Assembly (NCBI GenBank): GCA_902794825.1
Contig: CADBIU010000013.1
Coordinates: forward strand, 1-53,721
DNA from: an uncultured Lachnospiraceae bacterium
Lineage (GTDB): Bacteria > Bacillota > Clostridia > Lachnospirales > Lachnospiraceae
DNA: 53,721 nt
Reading direction: 5' to 3'
In this document: positions 3,576 to 48,713 of the stretch, piece by piece
Position numbering within the stretch: the first letter of the stretch is position 1
Layout: each line of letters starts with the position of its first letter
Translations under genes and position numbers: made by a program
The notes under the pieces: model-generated
The model's database searches: none
Told to the model about the DNA's origin: nothing
What the model saw: the letters and a program-made list of their open reading frames with translations, nothing else

Positions 3576-3604
3576 AGCGACCTCTGGGGTGGTTTGGTCC
3601 CACT
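3576..3604. repeat. Half copy of the CCTCTGGGG palindrome family
   Basis: GACCTCTGGGGTGGTTTGGT lies six bases after the LysR stop codon and just before the converging TerB-like gene. It matches the left arm of the palindromic family found at 4434-4481 and elsewhere; the right arm is absent. Confidence 0.7.
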
Positions 3605-4374: not shown

Positions 4375-4433
4375 GACCAAACCTCCTTTGGTGATGGTTG
4401 TTTCCTGCTGATTTTATTATATCAGACATGGAG

Positions 4434-4481
4434 ACCTCTGGGGTAGTTTGTCCACAGGTGTGGACAAACTACCCCAGAGGT
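4434..4481. repeat. Palindromic element, full copy
   Basis: A perfect inverted repeat with arms of 23 bases and centre GG (ACCTCTGGGG...CCCCAGAGGT), between the TerB-like gene start and the hipBA promoter. It is one member of the family listed in the findings. It could form a very stable hairpin on either strand. Confidence 0.9.
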
Positions 4482-6268: not shown

Positions 6269-6293
6269 CGACCTCTGGGGTAGTTTGTTCACA
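6269..6293. repeat. Half palindrome after hipA
   Basis: CGACCTCTGGGGTAGTTTGT matches the left arm of the palindrome family, immediately after the hipA stop. The right arm is missing, though a short GACCTCTTTTTC remnant appears at about 6319. Confidence 0.75.
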
Positions 6294-7440: not shown

Positions 7441-7665
7441 TTTCTCGGAGTCTATACTGGCGGGATTTCCGCCAGTATAGACTCGAGTACACATATACCT
7501 ATACTCCAGGACCCTGTGAGTACCCTTTTTCAAAGCCCTTTATTGGCGGGATTTCCGCCAATATAGACTCGAGTAAGCATATACCTATACTCCAGAACCC
7601 TGTGAGTACCCTTTTTCAAAACCCTTTATTGGCGGGATTTCCGCCAATAAAGGGTTCTGAAAAGG
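7441..7665. repeat. 86-bp tandem hairpin array
   Basis: The hairpin core GGCGG-GATTT-CCGCC occurs at 7459, 7545 and 7631, exactly 86 bases apart, separated by a near-identical spacer (CGAGTA...CATATACCTATACTCCAG...). Outer stems differ between copies. The first is TATACT/AGTATA, the third is CCCTTTATT/AATAAAGGG. The middle copy has a type-three left arm and a type-one-like right arm. Non-coding. Confidence 0.85.
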
Positions 7666-8849: not shown

Positions 8850-8953
8850 CCGACCTCTGGGGTAGTTTGTCCCCACCTGTGGACAAACTATCCAAACAAA
8901 AGACCTCTGGGGTAGTTTATGGACACCTGTCCGCAAACTACCCCAGAGGTCTC
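8850..8953. repeat. Two tandem palindromic elements
   Basis: One copy at 8851-8887 has a decayed right arm. A second at 8901-8951 has near-perfect arms with a compensated inner stem: GGACA and TGTCC replace the usual loop-proximal bases. Both lie between the lipoprotein gene end and the PARG gene start. Confidence 0.85.
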
Positions 8954-13761: not shown

Positions 13762-13821
13762 AAATCGACCTCTGGGGTAGTTTGTCCACACCTGTGGACA
13801 AACTACCCCAGAGGTCGATTT
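13762..13821. repeat. Palindromic element, longest perfect copy
   Basis: Arms of 29 bases (AAATCGACCTCTGG...CCACA and its exact complement) flank a CC centre. It lies between the TetR promoter and the phosphoesterase stop codon. A further fragment, GCAGAGGTCGATTTG, follows directly. Confidence 0.95.
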
Positions 13822-15077: not shown

Positions 15078-15129
15078 CGACCTCTGGGGTAGTTTGTCCA
15101 CACCTGTGGACAAACTACCCCAGAGGTCG
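15078..15129. repeat. Palindromic element, full copy
   Basis: A perfect inverted repeat of 25-base arms with CC centre, filling the gap between the S66 peptidase stop codon and the phosphoesterase ribosome site. Confidence 0.95.
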
Positions 15130-15139
15130 ATTTACACTT

Positions 15140-16006: not shown

Positions 16007-16058
16007 CGACCTCTGGGGTAGTTTGTCCACAGGCGTGGACAAACTACCCCAGAGGTCG
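16007..16058. repeat. Palindromic element, full copy
   Basis: Arms identical to the other copies, but the centre is AGGC instead of CACCTG-type. It lies between the dinB stop codon and the S66 gene, preceded by short CGACCTCGACCTC repeats. Confidence 0.95.
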
Positions 16059-16063
16059 ATTTG

Positions 16064-17497
16064 TCATTCTGAACTTCCTTTTCTGATCGTTCCTTTCCCA
16101 TACCGCTCGTTGAGCTTGCCCATCATTGCGTCCAGTTTGTCCTGGCGCGCTTTTTTGGCCTGTGCAGCCTTCTGCGCCTTTTCCCGGGCTTCCTGATCCG
16201 CCCTCTGAGCTTTCTCGGCTTCCGCTCTCCGGCTCTCTTCTTCTTCATTGCGCTCCGCCCACTCGAAGAGGTCCATCTGGTGCACCGTTTTCTCCTTTTC
16301 CGAGAGTCGCGATACGCCGACTCCGATGAGCCGTATTGTAACTCCCTGCGCAAATAAGCCCTCCGGCCCGCCCAAAAGTTGGTCTGCGAGAAGTAAGGCT
16401 GCCGCCTCTATATCTTTTGACTGATCTGTCACAGCCGTCAGGGACATCTGCCGGGAATGCCTCTCAAAGTCCGAGGATTTGATCTGAAAAGTGATCGTTT
16501 GGCCGACCAGACCGCTCTTCTGCAGCCTGCCCGCGACTTTCCGGGAGAGCATGCAAATGACAGGAACGCCGTCCGCCTGGTAATTCTCCCTGCCGATATC
16601 CTCCGACAGCGTGCGCTCGTTGGAAACGCTCTTGGCCTGCTCCCGCTCCGCAACCACTTTGGACTTGCTGATCCCGTTGGCGCTGTTCCAGATGTAAGCG
16701 CCGCTGCTCTGCCCCAGAAAAGACTGCAGAAGCGCCCTGTCCGCCGACGCGGCATCGCCGATCGTGTTGATCCCGATCAGCTGCAGTTTCTGCGCCGTCG
16801 ACTTCCCGCAGCCGTGCAGCGCCTCGATGGGGAGCGGCCACATCTTGGCCGGCACTTCCTCGGGATACAGAGTATGCGTCCGGTCGGGCTTCTCAAAGTC
16901 ACTCGCCATTTTTGCCAAAAGCTTGTTGCATGAAATTCCGACATTCACCGTGAATCCCAGCTCCGCCCTCACTTGATCGCGGATCTTCTGAGCCAGCGCT
17001 GCCGCACGCTCGCGCTCGCCGGAGGTGCAAACCACCCCAGAGGTCTCTTGAGTGTAAATTACCCCAGAGGTCTCTTTGCACCCCACCTGGGGACAAACTA
17101 CCCCAGAGGTCCCTTTCTCAGAAACCCTCTCTGTCACGTCCAGGTATGCCTCATCAATTGACACCTGCTGCAATAAGGGCGAATACCGGGAAAGGATCTC
17201 CATCAGTGCATGCGAATACTTCCGGTACGTCTCGAAATCCGGCGGCACCAGCACCAGCTGCGGACATTTCTGCAATGCTTTGACAACCGGTTCCCCTGTC
17301 TGAACGCCGTATTTCTTGGCCGGAATGGATTTTGCCGTGATGATTCCGTGGCGCGTTTTGACATCGCCGCCCACACCTGAAGGAATTGTGCGCAGATCCA
17401 CTGCATCAGGATCTTCCTCCAGGCGCTTGAGCGCCGACCATGATAGAAATGCGGAATTTACATCCACATGAAAAATAGTGCGTCCTTCAGATTCCAT
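16064..17497 (-). CDS. dinB: DNA polymerase IV (Y family), with repeat-encoded insertion
   Basis: A 477-residue translesion polymerase. Catalytic residues are intact: HVDVNSAF (Asp12) and SIDEAYLD (Asp115, Glu116). Helix-hairpin-helix and little-finger domains follow, and QMDLF near residue 409 is a beta-clamp-binding motif, followed by a highly charged coiled C-terminal tail. Between DVTER and RAAALAQ, residues 125-160 are an insertion not expected in the family. It is encoded by three half copies of the palindromic element and reads as repeated TSGV(V/I) units. ATG 17497 follows GAGGTC, itself part of a repeat fragment. Confidence 0.9.
   Translation of the reverse strand: MESEGRTIFHVDVNSAFLSWSALKRLEEDPDAVDLRTIPSGVGGDVKTRHGIITAKSIPAKKYGVQTGEPVVKALQKCPQLVLVPPDFETYRKYSHALMEILSRYSPLLQQVSIDEAYLDVTERVSEKGTSGVVCPQVGCKETSGVIYTQETSGVVCTSGERERAAALAQKIRDQVRAELGFTVNVGISCNKLLAKMASDFEKPDRTHTLYPEEVPAKMWPLPIEALHGCGKSTAQKLQLIGINTIGDAASADRALLQSFLGQSSGAYIWNSANGISKSKVVAEREQAKSVSNERTLSEDIGRENYQADGVPVICMLSRKVAGRLQKSGLVGQTITFQIKSSDFERHSRQMSLTAVTDQSKDIEAAALLLADQLLGGPEGLFAQGVTIRLIGVGVSRLSEKEKTVHQMDLFEWAERNEEEESRRAEAEKAQRADQEAREKAQKAAQAKKARQDKLDAMMGKLNERYGKGTIRKGSSE
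17018..17125. repeat. Three in-frame half palindromes inside dinB
   Basis: Right-arm units ACTACCCCAGAGGTC or close variants end at about 17046, 17063 and 17112. All lie in the same orientation and frame, giving KETSGV-type peptides in DinB. Total added length is 108 bases, or 36 codons, with no frameshift. Confidence 0.9.
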
Positions 17498-17500
17498 TTT

Positions 17501-17587
17501 GACCTCGAATGACCTCGACCTCGAATGACCTCTGGGGTAGTTTGTTCCCCCCACCGGGACCTCGAATGACCTCTGGGGTGGTTTGTC
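17501..17587. repeat. Cluster of half palindromes upstream of dinB
   Basis: GACCTCGAAT units repeat at 17501 and 17511-17525. Two left-arm copies, GACCTCTGGGGTAGTTTG and GACCTCTGGGGTGGTTTG, follow at 17528 and 17568. The cluster fills the gap between acylphosphatase and dinB and supplies the dinB ribosome-site region. Confidence 0.85.
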
Positions 17588-17874: not shown

Positions 17875-17900
17875 CGAAAATCTCCTTATTAGGCCGGCTC

Positions 17901-17949
17901 GACCTCTGGGGTAGTTTGTCCACACCTGTGGACAAACTACCCCAGAGGT
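17901..17949. repeat. Palindromic element, full copy
   Basis: Perfect 23-base arms with CC centre (ACCTCTGGGG...CCCCAGAGGT), between the flavodoxin-fold reductase stop codon and the acylphosphatase start. Confidence 0.95.
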
Positions 17950-18626: not shown

Positions 18627-18720
18627 GTGGGTACAAACTACCCCAGAGGTCTCTTGCACCTTTACGCCCCATCTGGGTACAAACTACCCCAGAGGTCTCT
18701 TTCACAGAGGTCTCTTTCAC
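18627..18720. repeat. Half palindromes forming the radical SAM gene end
   Basis: Right-arm copies ACAAACTACCCCAGAGGTCT start at 18633 and 18679, followed by a short CAGAGGTCTCTTTCAC piece ending at 18720. The last two overlap the radical SAM coding sequence and give its final residues and stop codon. Confidence 0.85.
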
Positions 18721-39589: not shown

Positions 39590-39958
39590 TTATAACTTGA
39601 AAACTTCGGGCGTTTGAGCCCGGCCCGCTTCACCACTGTTCTTATATCCCAGCATATCCGGATCATCGTGTACGTTAAAACGAACAACCGCATTGCTGGT
39701 GATCATTACAGACTCCTGGTGGAAAGCCGTGCACACTTCTTTGGCAATTTTATAGACCACCATCTGAGGCGTGCCTATGAGCGTGATCAGAAGTGTGTTT
39801 TCGTCCACCCAACTGCCGTCATTGTGGAAATATCCGCCCTCGATCACCTTCAGCTCTGATCCATCGGGCAGCAGGTCCAGCGATGTTTTGACCCGGTCCA
39901 TATTCAGGTAAGGATCCTTGTCACCGCATATGACCAGCGTCGGCACCGTGATCTTCAT
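39590..39958 (-). pseudogene. Chimeric remnant: hydrolase end joined to an unknown domain
   Basis: A 122-residue frame. Residues 1-42 match the late part of an alpha/beta hydrolase (ITVPTLVICGDKDPYL...LKVIEGG, around the catalytic Asp and before the His). From residue 43 (YFHNDGSWVDENTLLITLIG, QESVMITSNAVVRFN) the pattern is of an unrelated small beta domain. No ribosome site is visible, and the 5' side is cut by the 70-bp repeat array four bases upstream. Probably a broken fusion rather than a working gene. Confidence 0.5.
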
Positions 39959-39961
39959 TGG

Positions 39962-40370
39962 TTTCTGCCGTTTGAGTGCCCCTCAACTACCTCCAGCGCC
40001 GCTTTAACGGCAATATCACGGTTTTGATTAATTTCTGCCCTTTGAGTGCCCCTGTACTACCTCCAGCGCCACTTTAACGGCAATATACCAGTTTTGATTG
40101 ATTTCTGCCCTTTGAGTGCCCCTCAGCTACCTCCAGCGCCACTTTAACGGCATTATACCAGTTATAGCTGATTTCTGCCTTTTGAGTGCCCCTGTACTAC
40201 CTCCAGCGCCACTTTAACGGCAATATACCAGTTATAGCTGATTTCTGCCCTTTGAGTGCCCCTCAGCTACCTCCAGCGCCACTTTAACGGCGATATAACA
40301 GTTATAGTTGATTTCTGCCCTTTGAGTGCCCCTCAGCTATCTCCAGCGCCACTCAAACGTCGCCACATCT
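39962..40370. repeat. 70-bp tandem repeat array, six copies
   Basis: TTTCTGCC(C)TTTGAGTGCC units start at 39962, 40032, 40102, 40172, 40242 and 40312, exactly 70 bases apart. Variation lies mainly in short segments (CCTCAGCTAC or CCTGTACTAC; GTTTTGATT or GTTATAGCT). GAGTG and CACTT can pair within units, perfectly only in the last. No coding potential. This is the gap before the tRNA array. Confidence 0.92.
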
Positions 40371-40434: not shown

Positions 40435-40470
40435 AAGAACCACACAAATTCAGCAATTCTTCCGAGTGAG

Positions 40471-40541
40471 AGCCCTGAACGGGAGTCGAACCCGCACACC
40501 AGGTTTGGAAGACCTGTATGCTGCCTTTGCATCACCAGAGC
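40471..40541 (-). tRNA. tRNA-Gly (TCC)
   Basis: Acceptor GCTCTGG/TCAGGGC has two G-U pairs. D stem is ATGC/GCAT, anticodon arm CAGGT-CTTCCAA-ACCTG, T arm GCGGG-TTCGACT-CCCGT. CCA is not encoded. Confidence 0.8.
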
Positions 40542-40556
40542 GTTTATTAATAATAG

Positions 40557-40628
40557 TGGGCATGACAGGACTCGAACCTGCGTCTGACGGGTTAAAAGCC
40601 CGCTGCATAACCGTTTTGCTACATACCC
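40557..40628 (-). tRNA. tRNA-Lys (TTT)
   Basis: Acceptor GGGTATG/CATGCCC, anticodon arm GCGGG-CTTTTAA-CCCGT and a TTCGAGT T loop are all intact. No encoded CCA. Confidence 0.85.
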
Positions 40629-40631
40629 GGA

Positions 40632-40704
40632 TGTCTCATACAGGATTCGAACCCGTATTGGAGGATTAGAAGTCCTCTGTCCTCTCCTATTGAACGAATG
40701 AGAC
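40632..40704 (-). tRNA. tRNA-Arg (TCT)
   Basis: Acceptor GTCTCAT/ATGAGAC, anticodon arm GAGGA-CTTCTAA-TCCTC, T arm with TTCGAAT loop. No encoded CCA. Confidence 0.85.
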
Positions 40705-40708
40705 ATGA

Positions 40709-40777
40709 AGTGCACAGATGGATTCGAACCATCCACGTAAGGAGTTGCAGTCCAGACTGGTCCCAGACCATATGCAC
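40709..40777 (-). tRNA. tRNA-Cys (GCA), divergent
   Basis: Acceptor GTGCATA/TGTGCAC and T arm GATGG-TTCGAAT-CCATC are good. The D arm GGTC-TGG-GACC has only three loop bases, and the anticodon stem is weak around CTGCAAC. At 69 nt it is short and may be decayed. Confidence 0.6.
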
Positions 40778-40782
40778 GCAAG

Positions 40783-40854
40783 TGGACAGTGTTCGAGTCG
40801 AACGAACCTCCTCCGGGCTTCAACCGGCTACCTCTCCCTGTCGGCCAACTGTCC
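40783..40854 (-). tRNA. tRNA-Phe (GAA), divergent
   Basis: Acceptor GGACAGT/ACTGTCC and T arm GTTCG-TTCGACT-CGAAC are intact. Anticodon arm CCGG-TTGAAGC-CCGG gives GAA after U33. The 80 bases upstream of it (40855-40935) hold only uncertain tRNA-like pieces. Confidence 0.65.
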
Positions 40855-40935
40855 AAATTTTTTTAACTGTTAAAGTGTTGCGACCACAAAAGCAGTCCCG
40901 ACTGAAAAAGTGTTTTACCACTAAAGCCAGCCAGA

Positions 40936-41009
40936 TCACCCCAACGGGACTTGAACCCGTATCTCCAGGTTGAAAGCCTGGCCACCTGACCGTGTTAGTA
41001 TATGGGGCG
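40936..41009 (-). tRNA. tRNA-Glu (TTC)
   Basis: Acceptor CGCCCCA/TGGGGTG, anticodon arm CCAGG-CTTTCAA-CCTGG, T arm ACGGG-TTCAAGT-CCCGT. No encoded CCA. Confidence 0.8.
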
Positions 41010-41011
41010 CG

Positions 41012-41086
41012 ATTGCAGAGACCGGATTCGAACCGACATAGTTCGCCGTATGAGGGCGCCGCCTTACCAATCGAGCCACTCTGCAA
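41012..41086 (-). tRNA. tRNA-Met (CAT)
   Basis: Acceptor TTGCAGA/TCTGCAA, anticodon arm CGCC-CTCATAC-GGCG, T loop TTCGAAT. Elongator Met or an Ile CAT type cannot be told apart. Confidence 0.75.
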
Positions 41087-41177
41087 TATCATTTTCAGGG
41101 CAACCGGAACATGACTAAAGGCCATGCCCCAATTGCCTCTATTCAAAACAAACAGACTGAGAACTTGATCTGTTCCG

Positions 41178-41235
41178 TCCGCATCTGCCGGCGTTGGAAC
41201 CGGTGCTCACACTGAGGATTAGTCAGTAGCGGACA
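41178..41235 (-). other. tRNA-like three-way junction lacking an anticodon arm
   Basis: GTCCGC/GCGGAC closes a junction of two hairpins. One is CTGA-CTAATCC-TCAG, like a D arm. The other is CCGG-TTCCAAC(G)-CCGG, like a T arm. No anticodon arm lies between them. Possibly a tRNA remnant or a distinct small RNA. The surrounding 41087-41450 region otherwise shows no gene; a CTGGTTTT/AAAACCAG hairpin lies near 41243. Confidence 0.35.
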
Positions 41236-41450
41236 TCAACACTGGTTTTGCAAAAACCAGCAAACTCTTGCATCAGGACGTTATAAATTTCCTTTGGGCA
41301 CATTCTTCCTTGCGGGATTCAGAGACTGCCGTCTCTTAGAGTTGCACTTACTCGATACTCTTTCTTATGTCGGCTTGCGGCTTTCATAAGTGTTCATATT
41401 GCAGAACAATAAGTTGATTTTCTTTCCTGAAGCCGTACACTCTTTGGCAG

Positions 41451-41523
41451 CTGCATATGCCGGATTCGAACCGGCAACCCTTCGATTCATAGTCAAATGC
41501 TCTACCAATTGAGCAAACATGCA
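41451..41523 (-). tRNA. tRNA with anticodon ATG (His-like)
   Basis: Acceptor TGCATGT/ATATGCA, D stem GCTC/GAGC, anticodon arm TTTGA-CTATGAA-TCGAA, T arm GCCGG-TTCGAAT-CCGGC. The anticodon ATG would read the His codon CAU, but A34 is unusual here and no extra G at -1 is evident. Confidence 0.7.
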
Positions 41524-41902
41524 TGAGGACTGTGAGGTGTACATTTACCATCCCTATCTTTTGGATAAGGCCCGGAATTCACAGCCCTGGTCGTCTTGCG
41601 GACTTCCTTCTGTCCTTTCGTCCCTTCCTTTCGGTTTGAGGGACCTCCGGCAGATAAATACAGCACTTGTCCTTGCGGGGCTCGCACCGTAGATCCATAG
41701 AACGCTCTCCCCTGTTTCCAGGTTAGGAACCCTGCGATGTACCGCCGATCCCGATTCCGCCATACCCTCAGCAGTTGCCCTTAGGCAGAAGGCAAAATCT
41801 AGTTCCATGAGTTTTCTGTCGCACTCGCCATATGGCAAGTCGGGACTTGCATCCCTTTATCCCCATCACTGGGTTTATCATAAAGGGCCGAAACCACCCT
41901 TT
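41524..41902. other. Gap with tRNA-like fragments, no clear gene
   Basis: On the minus strand GGGTATGGCGGAATCGGG looks like a tRNA-Leu/Ser start. It is followed by CAGGGTTCCTAACCTG (anticodon-arm-like) and GTGCGAGCCCCGCAAGG (weak T-arm-like), but they do not fold into one standard tRNA. The long open minus frame here lacks protein-like features. I see no supported gene. Confidence 0.3.
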
Positions 41903-41929
41903 GTGTCACGGGGACAGTCCCCGTGTCAC
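41903..41929. repeat. REP-like hairpin CACGGGGAC/GTCCCCGTG
   Basis: A near-perfect palindrome, related in its GGGGAC/GTCCCC core to the elements at 12040 and 43563. Confidence 0.7.
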
Positions 41930-41958
41930 GTTGAACAATTCTTTCGAAAAGTTCAGAG

Positions 41959-42080
41959 CCCGGTGGGTTGGACTCGAACCAACAACCTCTGCGTTAGGAG
42001 CGCAAACGATAATAATTGCTGTCAAAACCCCGCACAGGATTTATTTCATCATAGAGCTCTACCCTTTGAGCTACCACCGG
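41959..42080 (-). tRNA. tRNA-Arg (CCT) with a 49-nt insertion after the D arm
   Basis: Acceptor CCGGTGG/CCACCGG, D stem GCTC/GAGC, anticodon arm TTGCG-CTCCTAA-CGCAG and T arm GTTGG-TTCGAGT-CCAAC are all present. About 49 extra nucleotides separate the D arm from the anticodon arm, including AAATCCTG and CGGGGTTTT, which can pair. Total length 122. Confidence 0.65.
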
Positions 42081-42087
42081 TTATGAG

Positions 42088-42161
42088 TAGGAACAGGCGG
42101 ACTCGAACCGCCGATTTCCTGCGTATCAGACAGGCGCTCTAACCAACTGAACTATGTTCCT
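42088..42161 (-). tRNA. tRNA-Ile (GAT)
   Basis: Acceptor AGGAACA/TGTTCCT, D arm GTTC/GAGC with GTTGGTTA loop, anticodon arm CCTGT-CTGATAC-GCAGG, T arm GGCGG-TTCGAGT-CCGCC. The most canonical tRNA of the array. Confidence 0.9.
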
Positions 42162-42169
42162 ATGTTTTG

Positions 42170-42252
42170 ACCGCTTGTGCGGCCTTGCGACCGCTGCCGC
42201 AGTCTGATCACCGCATGTGCGGCTTGCCGACCGCTGCCGCGGTCTGATCACC
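42170..42252. repeat. Short direct repeats abutting tRNA-Glu (CTC)
   Basis: GACCGCTGCCGC(A/G)GTCTGATCACC occurs twice, about 40 bases apart. The second copy ends inside the 3' end of the tRNA-Glu gene, so the tRNA end itself was partly duplicated. Confidence 0.7.
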
Positions 42253-42321
42253 CCAACGGGAGTCGAACCCGTATTTCCACACTGAGAATGTGGCGACCTG
42301 AACCATTAGTACGATGGGGCG
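42248..42321 (-). tRNA. tRNA-Glu (CTC)
   Basis: Acceptor CGCCCCA/TGGGGTG is identical to the TTC isoacceptor at 40936. Anticodon arm CCACA-TTCTCAG-TGTGG; T arm ACGGG-TTCGACT-CCCGT. Confidence 0.8.
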
Positions 42322-42325
42322 TTAG

Positions 42326-42398
42326 TGGGCTACCAGGGATTCGAACCCTGATCTGACGGATTAAGAGTCCGCTGTAATGGCCGTTATACGAGTAACCC
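42326..42398 (-). tRNA. tRNA-Lys (CTT)
   Basis: Acceptor GGGTTAC/GTAGCCC, anticodon arm GCGGA-CTCTTAA-TCCGT, T loop TTCGAAT. No encoded CCA. Confidence 0.82.
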
Positions 42399-42401
42399 AT
42401 A

Positions 42402-42437
42402 GACAAAGAAAACCGCCTCCCTTGTCAGGAAAGCGGC
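42402..42437 (-). terminator. Terminator inside the tRNA array
   Basis: On the minus strand CCGCTTTCC pairs with GGGAGGCGG (with G-U pairs), followed by TTTTCTTTG. It would end transcripts from upstream tRNA and small-ORF genes. Confidence 0.75.
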
Positions 42438-42457
42438 ACTGATCTGCATTATCAGGA

Positions 42458-42541
42458 AACCCGGATGCACTTACACATCCGACCGGAATCCGGATGCACT
42501 TATGCATCCATCTGGAATCCGGATGCACCTACGCATCCGCA
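42458..42541. repeat. Three short GGATGCA hairpin repeats
   Basis: GGATGCAC-N-GCATCC type hairpins occur at about 42462, 42491 and 42520, spaced 29 bases. The last contains the stop codon of the small ORF at 42529-42666. Confidence 0.75.
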
Positions 42542-42666
42542 TGGACTTCCTCAATTGCATATATGTTTTGCTTTTCTGAAAAGGGTATATTTAACAGACG
42601 TTCCAGGAATCCCCTGAAGCGCATTGTCTCGCGTTCTTTATTCTTGCAGATCATAATGTTCTTCAT
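42529..42666 (-). CDS. Small ORF in the tRNA array
   Basis: A 45-residue frame with a strong AAGGAG site before ATG 42666; an in-frame ATG at 42690 would add eight residues. It reads MKNIMICKNKERETM, then a basic helical middle (FRGFLERLLNIP) and ends AIEEVHADA. The size is far below usual gene cut-offs, but ribosome site, length and position before a terminator argue for translation. Its last codons lie in a hairpin repeat. No family recognised. Confidence 0.4.
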   Translation of the reverse strand: MKNIMICKNKERETMRFRGFLERLLNIPFSEKQNIYAIEEVHADA

Positions 42667-42688
42667 TTCTTCTTTCTCCTTATAACTC

Positions 42689-42768
42689 ATGACCCGATAA
42701 TTTACGGATTCGAACCGTTTATTAAGCGTGACAGGCTTTTTTTACCACTGAAATTGCTGTGCGGGTCA
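42689..42768 (-). tRNA. tRNA-Asp-like (GTC) with expanded junctions
   Basis: Acceptor TGACCCG/CGGGTCA, anticodon arm AAGC-CTGTCAC-GCTT and T arm ACGG-TTCGAAT-CCGT are visible. Eight bases separate the acceptor from the D region, and about six separate the T arm from the acceptor. AATTT and AAATT there could pair as an extra helix. Probably degenerate or atypical. Confidence 0.45.
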
Positions 42769-42866
42769 CATTTTATACTGTTCAGGACACAATATTTCTT
42801 AACAGGATTTATTGATCTTGTGAAATGTGTTTTGTTCGCTGTAAGTGTCCCCTTTAACTTATGAAC

Positions 42867-42981
42867 ACCGATGGACTGGATTCGAACCAATAACAACTGC
42901 GTCCCCTACGAATAAGCTGCAGTTAAAACCCCGGTCAGGATTTGTTTTTCTCAGTGCTCTACCAGATTGAGCTACCATCGG
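42867..42981 (-). tRNA. tRNA-like (possible Pro GGG) with insertion after the D arm
   Basis: Acceptor CCGATGG/CCATCGG, D stem GCTC/GAGC and T arm ATTGG-TTCGAAT-CCAGT are good. About 40 extra nucleotides follow the D arm and share AAATCCTG-NN-CGGGGTTTT with the insertion at 41959-42080. The anticodon arm is unclear (CGT-AGGGG-ACG, or AACTGC/GCAGTT around a large loop). Confidence 0.5.
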
Positions 42982-42985
42982 TAAT

Positions 42986-43055
42986 TGAAAATGTCGGATT
43001 CGAACCGCTCCTCTGCGTCCCAGGCGCAGCGTGCTACTCTTTACACCACATTCTC
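42986..43055 (-). tRNA. tRNA-Pro (TGG)
   Basis: Acceptor GAGAATG/CATTTTC, D stem GTGT/GCAC, anticodon arm CTGCG-CCTGGGA-CGCAG. Position 33 is C rather than U, and the T stem has only three firm pairs. Divergent but foldable. Confidence 0.65.
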
Positions 43056-43060
43056 ATCAG

Positions 43061-43132
43061 CAACCCCAACGGGAATCGAACCCGTGCTTCCGGAGCGACA
43101 GTCCGGCGTACTCGCCGCTATACTATGAGGCT
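43061..43132 (-). tRNA. tRNA-Asp (GTC)
   Basis: Acceptor AGCCTCA/TGGGGTT, D stem GTAT/GTAC, anticodon arm CCGGA-CTGTCGC-TCCGG, T arm ACGGG-TTCGATT-CCCGT. First tRNA of the array in transcription order. Confidence 0.8.
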
Positions 43133-48163: not shown

Positions 48164-48500
48164 GACGTTTCGACGCCGTTTTAGTGCCTTTAGCGGCGCC
48201 GAAACGGCGCCGCGCCTGTTTTGAATCTCTTGCCGACGTTTCGGCGACGTTTTAGTGCCTTTAGCGGCGACGAAACGGCGCCGCGCCTGTTTTGAATCTC
48301 TTGCCGACGTTTCGACGACGTTTTAGTGCCTTTAGCGGCGCCGAAACGGCGCCGCGCCTGTTTTAAATCTCTTGCCGACGTTTCAGCGACGTTTTAGTGC
48401 CTTTAGCGGCGCCGAAACGGCGCCGCGCCTGTTTTGAATCTCTTGCCGACGTTTCGGCGACGTTCTAGTTCCTTTAGCGGCGCCGAAACGGCGCCGCGCC
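48164..48500. repeat. 71-bp tandem hairpin array, five copies
   Basis: GACGTTTCG units start at 48164, 48235, 48306, 48377 and 48448, all 71 bases apart. In each, CGTTTCGGCG pairs with CGCCGAAACG around TTTTAGTGCCTTTAG. Differences between copies are concentrated at paired positions of the stem. Non-coding. Confidence 0.92.
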
Positions 48501-48713
48501 TTTACAAAGCTTCTTCGTTTGGTCTTCTGCCCCTAACTGAGCCCTTACGACTACCTCTAGGGCCTCAGTTACAGCAATCGGCTAGACAACCCGCCCAGCA
48601 ACTACCACAAATCAACAGCCAACCGACCAACCGACCGGTCAGCCGCCCAGCAACTGCCACAAATCAACGGCTAGCCGACCAACCGACCGGCCAACCGCCA
48701 ACAAACCACCACA
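48501..48713. repeat. Gap with hairpin and 52-bp duplication
   Basis: TAACTGAG(CCCT) at 48534 is inverted as (AGGG)CCTCAGTTA ending 48571. CCGCCCAGCAACT plus an ACCGACCAACCGACCGG tail occurs twice, 52 bases apart (48591 and 48643). No gene seen. Confidence 0.7.

Follow-up and report, generated by a model that had tools for sequence, protein, structure and literature searches.

In-frame REP-like repeat units in a Lachnospiraceae dinB gene differ in number among sister genomes

We analyzed a 53,721-nt stretch of DNA from an uncultured Lachnospiraceae bacterium, the whole of which is referred to as the window. The window carries a dinB-like gene with repeat copies inside it and on both sides (Table 1). 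At its full open length, the dinB reading frame covers positions 16064-17554 of the minus strand. The Pfam domains IMS (E = 5.7e-40, in a match spanning the insert described below), IMS_C (3.1e-23), and IMS_HHH were matched by the product, and the NCBIfam models of DNA polymerase IV matched at a best E value of 3.9e-84, every one of them under its curated cut-off. Beside the tandem halves that precede dinB, a 16-nt GACCTC-rich unit occurs twice without mismatch at positions 17501-17532; GACCTC strings were also observed beside an element copy near a RAYT gene, and EVEV-like peptides were observed beside a CarB copy. The terminus of the radical-SAM reading frame (18662-18702) is the element-encoded peptide DLWGSLYPDGA.

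Table 1. Repeat copies and the dinB gene in the window (a point marks features given without a strand)
Feature	Position	Strand	Remarks
Single half	3580..3597	-	
Intact inverted pair	4433..4481	.	
Single half	6271..6288	-	
One half, then inverted pair	8853..8950	.	
Intact inverted pair (REPIN)	13766..13818	.	24-bp stem as single-stranded DNA, z -12.6
Intact inverted pair	15078..15130	.	Identical to pair at 13766
Intact inverted pair	16007..16059	.	Directly downstream of dinB
dinB-like Y-family DNA polymerase IV gene	16064..17497	-	477 aa; start is the Met common to relatives
REP-encoded in-frame insert	17021..17119	-	33 codons by alignment; net 32 versus insert-free relatives
REP half, coding-order unit 3	17029..17044	+	AAACCACCCCAGAGGT
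REP half, coding-order unit 2	17056..17071	+	AAATTACCCCAGAGGT
REP half, coding-order unit 1	17095..17110	+	AAACTACCCCAGAGGT, exact core
Two tandem REP halves	17528..17586	-	Directly upstream of dinB start codon
Intact inverted pair	17900..17949	.	Upstream of dinB, past acylphosphatase gene
Two tandem halves	18633..18696	+	3' end of radical-SAM gene; second encodes DLWGSL near C-terminus

The alignment placed the insert (EKGTSGVVCPQVGCKETSGVIYTQETSGVVCTS) at residues 127-159 of DinB, beginning six residues past the SIDEAYLD segment (113-120) and 11 residues past the catalytic Glu of SIDE. An earlier note on this DNA had described palindrome halves of one orientation lying in frame within dinB, and the analysis bore this description out: three core copies, all on the plus strand within a minus-strand reading frame, were spaced 27 and 39 nt apart. 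The 36 codons claimed in that note had taken in flanking native residues; the insert itself is real, and its net size is 96 nt, or 32 codons, because the distance from SIDE to FTVNVGI is 234 nt in the window and 138 nt in the six insert-free relatives of that alignment. Similarly, the proposed position after SIDE in a palm/finger loop held for the palm, but not for the fingers. Judged from the sequence, only one of the six frames in which a REP unit can be read is interrupted by a stop. Single-strand folding of the three dinB units was unremarkable (z -1.3).

The repeat was strongly enriched in the window and throughout the genome. At three or fewer mismatches, the core AAACTACCCCAGAGGT was found 22 times in the window, whereas 100 shuffles averaged 0.30 occurrences and never exceeded 2; all 22 copies lay within 3.5-18.7 kb, and none was present in the other 35 kb. 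The entire genome contained 154-158 core copies, those of the window included, versus 0 for the reversed control, and the exact 12-mer ACCCCAGAGGTC occurred 185 times. In its intact form, the element forms a palindrome of 48 bp, and several of these lie in the window (13766, 15078, 16007, 17900, and 4433). Among the 34 adjacent inverted pairs less than 80 nt apart in 19 stretches of this genome, 27 exhibited a spacing of 37, and tandem spacings were many. The core was preceded by AAACT (GTAG on the other strand) in 113 of 174 copies in this genome and by AAACC (GTGG) in 17. A strictly conserved GTAG tag was not found: GTGG, GTAT, and GTCG occurred too, the last of these in the related species G035. 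Plasmid records yielded no match.

The folding analysis revealed two palindrome designs. A single half from the window's own genome (G000) did not fold alone, and the strong hairpin of the window arose between two inverted halves. The G035-type unit folded alone (z -6.5), each unit of that genome being a perfect hairpin with the loop CCAGA and covarying arms. Own-arm pairing exceeded all 300 shuffles in four of eight genomes, namely G035, G000, G032, and G077, and fell short of this in G063, G067, G079, and G081. The excess was strong in G035 (5.78 versus a shuffle mean of 4.45 and a maximum of 4.84) and narrow in the other three. The use of one core in two palindrome designs is apparently new.

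We compared the dinB loop among relatives. DinB matches were identified in 50 of 61 genomes searched at the protein level, the best 30 loci being retained, and a scan of named genomes added 38; the resulting alignment of 68 loci represents some genomes twice and includes one locus (L065) that stops short of the region. The TSGV insert was present only in the window, G012 (L042 and L072), G077 (L073), and G079 (L071). It was missing from most relatives examined. The outcome that the earlier note had named as refuting its reading, an equally long insertion of unrelated DNA conserved among distant species, was not observed; the TSGV units were confined to four close genomes. The dinB gene carried three units in the window and G012, two in G077, and one in G079. 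The corresponding net gains over insert-free relatives were 32 codons in the window (with an equally long array in L072), 23 in L073, and 11 in L071. The differences in array length, 27 nt between the window and L073 and 36 nt between L073 and L071, are all multiples of three; the latter corresponds to a 39-nt unit minus one extra codon in L071. Because the window is nearer to L071 than to L073 (synonymous distances of 0.19 and 0.26), at least two changes are needed for the copy numbers 3, 1, and 2.

No unit was found in dinB of G063, G067, G081, or the other insert-free rows; elsewhere in these three genomes, the core occurred 52, 105, and 49 times, respectively. G032 and G024 were without an orthologue over the loop region, and the G080 loop was left out. 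In G035, the same loop holds a different, glycine- and serine-rich insert. We considered whether this insert was a repeat of that genome and rejected the idea: beyond itself, it had one 25-nt partial match and was otherwise single-copy. The DinB loop therefore tolerates length changes, since G035 carries an unrelated insert there.

An AlphaFold2 model of DinB built from 33 sequences had a mean pLDDT of 83 and a pTM of 0.60. Residues 128-157, flanked by a short helix (122-129) and a helix at 159-180, formed the sole long stretch with a pLDDT below 50. In a Foldseek search with this model, the first-ranked hit was 9a5e, an integrative model, and the best crystal match was the DinB-DNA complex 4r8u (E = 3.7e-32), the polymerase of which we take to be Escherichia coli DNA polymerase IV. 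The loop of that polymerase at the insert position is short (DSVHCHGSA). The insert peptide lies in a length-variable palm loop at the surface and is predicted to be disordered. Outside the insert, the dN/dS ratio against the window was 0.10 for L072, 0.09 for L073, 0.10 for L071, and 0.09 each for L074, L075, and L076; between L071 and L073, it was 0.08. Because the ratio remained at 0.08-0.10 over these seven comparisons, which cover genes with and without the insert, the insert-bearing polymerase looks functional on sequence grounds, and the claim that the repeat can be tolerated as peptide apparently stands. No sign of altered catalysis emerged from these sequence-based analyses. Within the insert, counts were too low for judging selection.

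Copies in frame were not limited to dinB. We scanned 61 element-rich stretches from nine genomes with the 12-mer core; these stretches were picked for holding elements or RAYT genes, so the in-frame counts are not genome-wide rates. Among 344 clusters, 32 were flagged as lying within genes and 299 were not, with the remaining 13 at stretch edges; some flagged clusters are one site seen in two genomes. Clear in-frame hosts were DinB, CarB (two sites), MurT, a FUSC/HAD protein, an HSL-type esterase, a GH2 enzyme, and a DUF4153 protein, the gene of which also carries an inverted pair. DinB is therefore not special in this respect. The main CarB segments of G000 and G012 were 98% identical, and the number of exact cores, all in frame, was three versus two at site 1 and one versus four at site 2. 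A further observation concerns CarB of G008 (L206), a 1401-aa open frame with long low-complexity inserts at the same loops in a genome without an exact core.

Several candidates were discarded. From a reading of the peptides, we regard nine of the 32 flagged clusters as native sequence spelling the core by chance: three in what we presume to be GH1 enzymes, two in proteins presumed to be PQQ-like, three in acyltransferases, and one in an esterase. The tandem cluster L238:17795 lies in a doubtful reading frame without a Pfam match, and a CobA-HemD linker (L143) and a DUF2752/HflK-like junction (L153), flagged with an 11-mer and not with the 12-mer, were left uncounted. A bias toward repair genes was not apparent, DinB being the sole repair enzyme among the clear in-frame hosts of this small sample. 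With edge clusters dropped (seven inverted and two tandem), inverted clusters were flagged inside genes less often than tandem ones (1/86 versus 10/123; Fisher 0.029). We place little weight on an exclusion of the inverted form from genes because G000 and G012 share some sites.

A gene resembling those for REP-associated tyrosine transposases (RAYTs), with element copies on both sides, was identified in the same genome (G000:C113:2811-3569). One core precedes its start by approximately 30 nt, and further cores follow its end at 67-144 nt. Its product matched PF01797 (E = 7.1e-14, over the cut-off) and the NCBIfam model REP_Tyr_transpos NF047646 (E = 2e-17; 63 bits versus a cut-off of 80); a sequence search of solved structures with the RAYT gave no match. 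A second RAYT-like gene (contig C102, 69% identical) adjoins variants with the same core and different arms. Among the 30 loci from the RAYT search (L159-L188), the 11-mer core was present in 13, all from matches of at least 300 bits, and absent in 17; one locus without the core (L170 of G021) nonetheless scored 312 bits.

Across 62 genomes of the genus, all 12 with a RAYT match of at least 300 bits had at least 12 copies of ACCCCAGAGGTC (range, 12 to 235), compared with two of the other 50 (Fisher 4e-11). In these 50 genomes without a close RAYT, two had 19 and 17 copies, two had 7 and 5, and the rest had 0 or 1. The exceptions were G023 (19 copies and a weak match), G080 (17 copies and no RAYT found), G009 (7), and G006 (5). 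G080 is listed as 93% complete; its 17 cores, accompanied by no RAYT match, are perhaps a relic population after transposase loss. In G063, an assembly of approximately 40 contigs, 32 of 52 copies lay in a 36-kb stretch around one RAYT match, and its two other RAYT matches had just two copies each on their contigs.

These features resemble the REP/REPIN and RAYT systems as described in the available parts of PMC8266576 and PMC6006769: short palindromic units that occur as singlets, inverted pairs, and tandem clusters in high copy number, mostly extragenic, with a flanked RAYT gene; here, copy number also tracks RAYT. The differences are that those systems have a conserved GTAG or CGTC at one end, whereas a strict GTAG tag was not found here and the common part is the 12-mer ACCCCAGAGGTC; that a half from this genome does not fold alone, although G035 has perfect-hairpin units; and that the host is a member of Lachnospiraceae. 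The likeness to Rickettsia palindromic elements (RPEs) proposed in the earlier note holds as to kind, in that palindromic repeats lie in frame in protein genes (here DinB, CarB, MurT, and others). The phylum differs, however, and the DinB inserts are tandem half-units rather than whole palindromes. The REP/REPIN-RAYT systems are the better match because element copies lie on both sides of a RAYT-like gene in this genome.

A literature search for in-frame palindromic insertions led, for REPs, to PMC3733652, a 2013 report of intragenic REPs ("REP-decorated proteins") in several species; a search directed at intragenic REPs yielded, besides this report, just one unrelated paper. According to the available text of this report, grouped inserts encode 20-30 and up to 82 aa, many intragenic REPs lie in DNA synthesis and repair genes, including the error-prone DnaE2, and RPE-4 and RPE-6 are equated with its intragenic R. 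conorii repeats. Its main text mentions neither dinB and polymerase IV nor Firmicutes and Clostridia. Unlike the cases in that text, the number of in-frame copies here differs from one sister genome to another. No relevant account of RAYT or REP in Firmicutes, Clostridia, or Lachnospiraceae turned up in the literature searched, which lacked most subscription papers. The Lachnospiraceae host and the in-frame change in copy number between sister genomes are apparently new.

We consider it very likely that the dinB units are REP halves of a REPIN-type element served by RAYT, which entered the loop, were subsequently gained and lost in frame, and persisted. RAYT is an HUH-type Y1 tyrosine transposase, and its mechanism is known from other systems. 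It most likely copies and moves the nonautonomous element via single-stranded DNA, and the RAYT identified here is presumably the enzyme that moves it. One unit of approximately 27 nt (nine codons; its coding-sense sequence in L071 is AAAGAGACCTCTGGGGTAGTTTGCACT) would have been inserted into the palm loop of DinB, ahead of the helix at 159-180. The simplest history is one such event in a common ancestor of the four sampled genomes, and we infer a single origin of the insert. The array probably then gained or lost units with the frame kept, through recombination or slippage between direct repeats or through insertion beside the first copy. The insert would persist because five of the six unit frames are stop-free, the loop was already length-variable, and the peptide is predicted to be disordered. 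This peptide is presumably translated and may well be functionally neutral.

Other explanations share part of this evidence. An ordinary tandem repeat, produced by slippage from the native loop and resembling the genome-wide repeat by coincidence, would suit the length variability of the loop among relatives and the unrelated, essentially single-copy insert of G035; moreover, recombination between direct repeats would account for unit spacings of 27 and 39 nt and for arrays that differ by 27 and 36 nt. Slippage could explain the later copy changes, but not the origin, for which it is contradicted by the match of the units to a core present 154-158 times in the genome (versus 0 for the control) and 22 times in the window (versus 0.3 expected); as an account of the origin, it appears highly improbable. 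We also give very little credence to a dispersed, nonmobile site for a host regulator or nucleoid protein, whose presence in dinB would be accidental or regulatory. The well-preserved core and the arrangement of half-sites, inverted or in tandem, do look operator-like, and the copies cluster regionally; nevertheless, the patchy distribution tracks RAYT, the RAYT genes are flanked by copies, and copies occur in unrelated genes, including the interiors of CarB and MurT.

An adaptive modification of the polymerase by the insert, such as a new contact with the clamp or a partner that tunes mutagenesis, seems quite unlikely. The gene is under purifying selection, the array occurs in all four close genomes examined, and PMC3733652 had already described REPs in repair genes; against this, the copy number ranges from one to three across sister genomes, the peptide is predicted to be disordered, and similar arrays lie in biosynthetic enzymes. 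The assembly is fragmented (127 contigs, 84.6% complete), which could point to an artefact or a pseudogene, yet the same three-unit array was found in a separate assembly (L072), related arrays were found in L071 and L073, internal stops were absent, and dN/dS was about 0.1, making this explanation extremely improbable. Returning to the REP-derived origin, we regard as doubtful, albeit conceivable, an extension in which the RAYT system itself adds and removes units beside an in-frame copy and thereby lengthens coding arrays. If it were true, mobile DNA would steadily generate and retune disordered loops in the housekeeping enzymes DinB, CarB, and MurT, and, through DinB, the mutation rate could shift.

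Nothing is overturned by these findings, since intragenic REPs were already known; what they add to the record of in-frame REP insertion is a Lachnospiraceae genus as host and a DinB polymerase as target. The series of zero, one, two, and three units, together with selection on the same gene, would constitute a record of mobile DNA becoming protein, and both the flanking copies and the genus-wide distribution tie this series to a candidate transposase.

Other repeats were also observed in the window. Positions 7452-7652 contain an 86-nt repeat in two full copies and a partial one; this repeat has its own palindrome, CTATACTGGCGGGATTTCCGCCAGTATAG, and is unlike the element in sequence. A 70-nt tandem repeat (39958-40353; 5.7 copies, 90% matches) adjoins a tRNA gene cluster at 40470-43132, and a 71-nt tandem repeat (48164-48501; 4.8 copies, 95% matches) is followed just past its end by a 52-nt repeat at 48591-48713.
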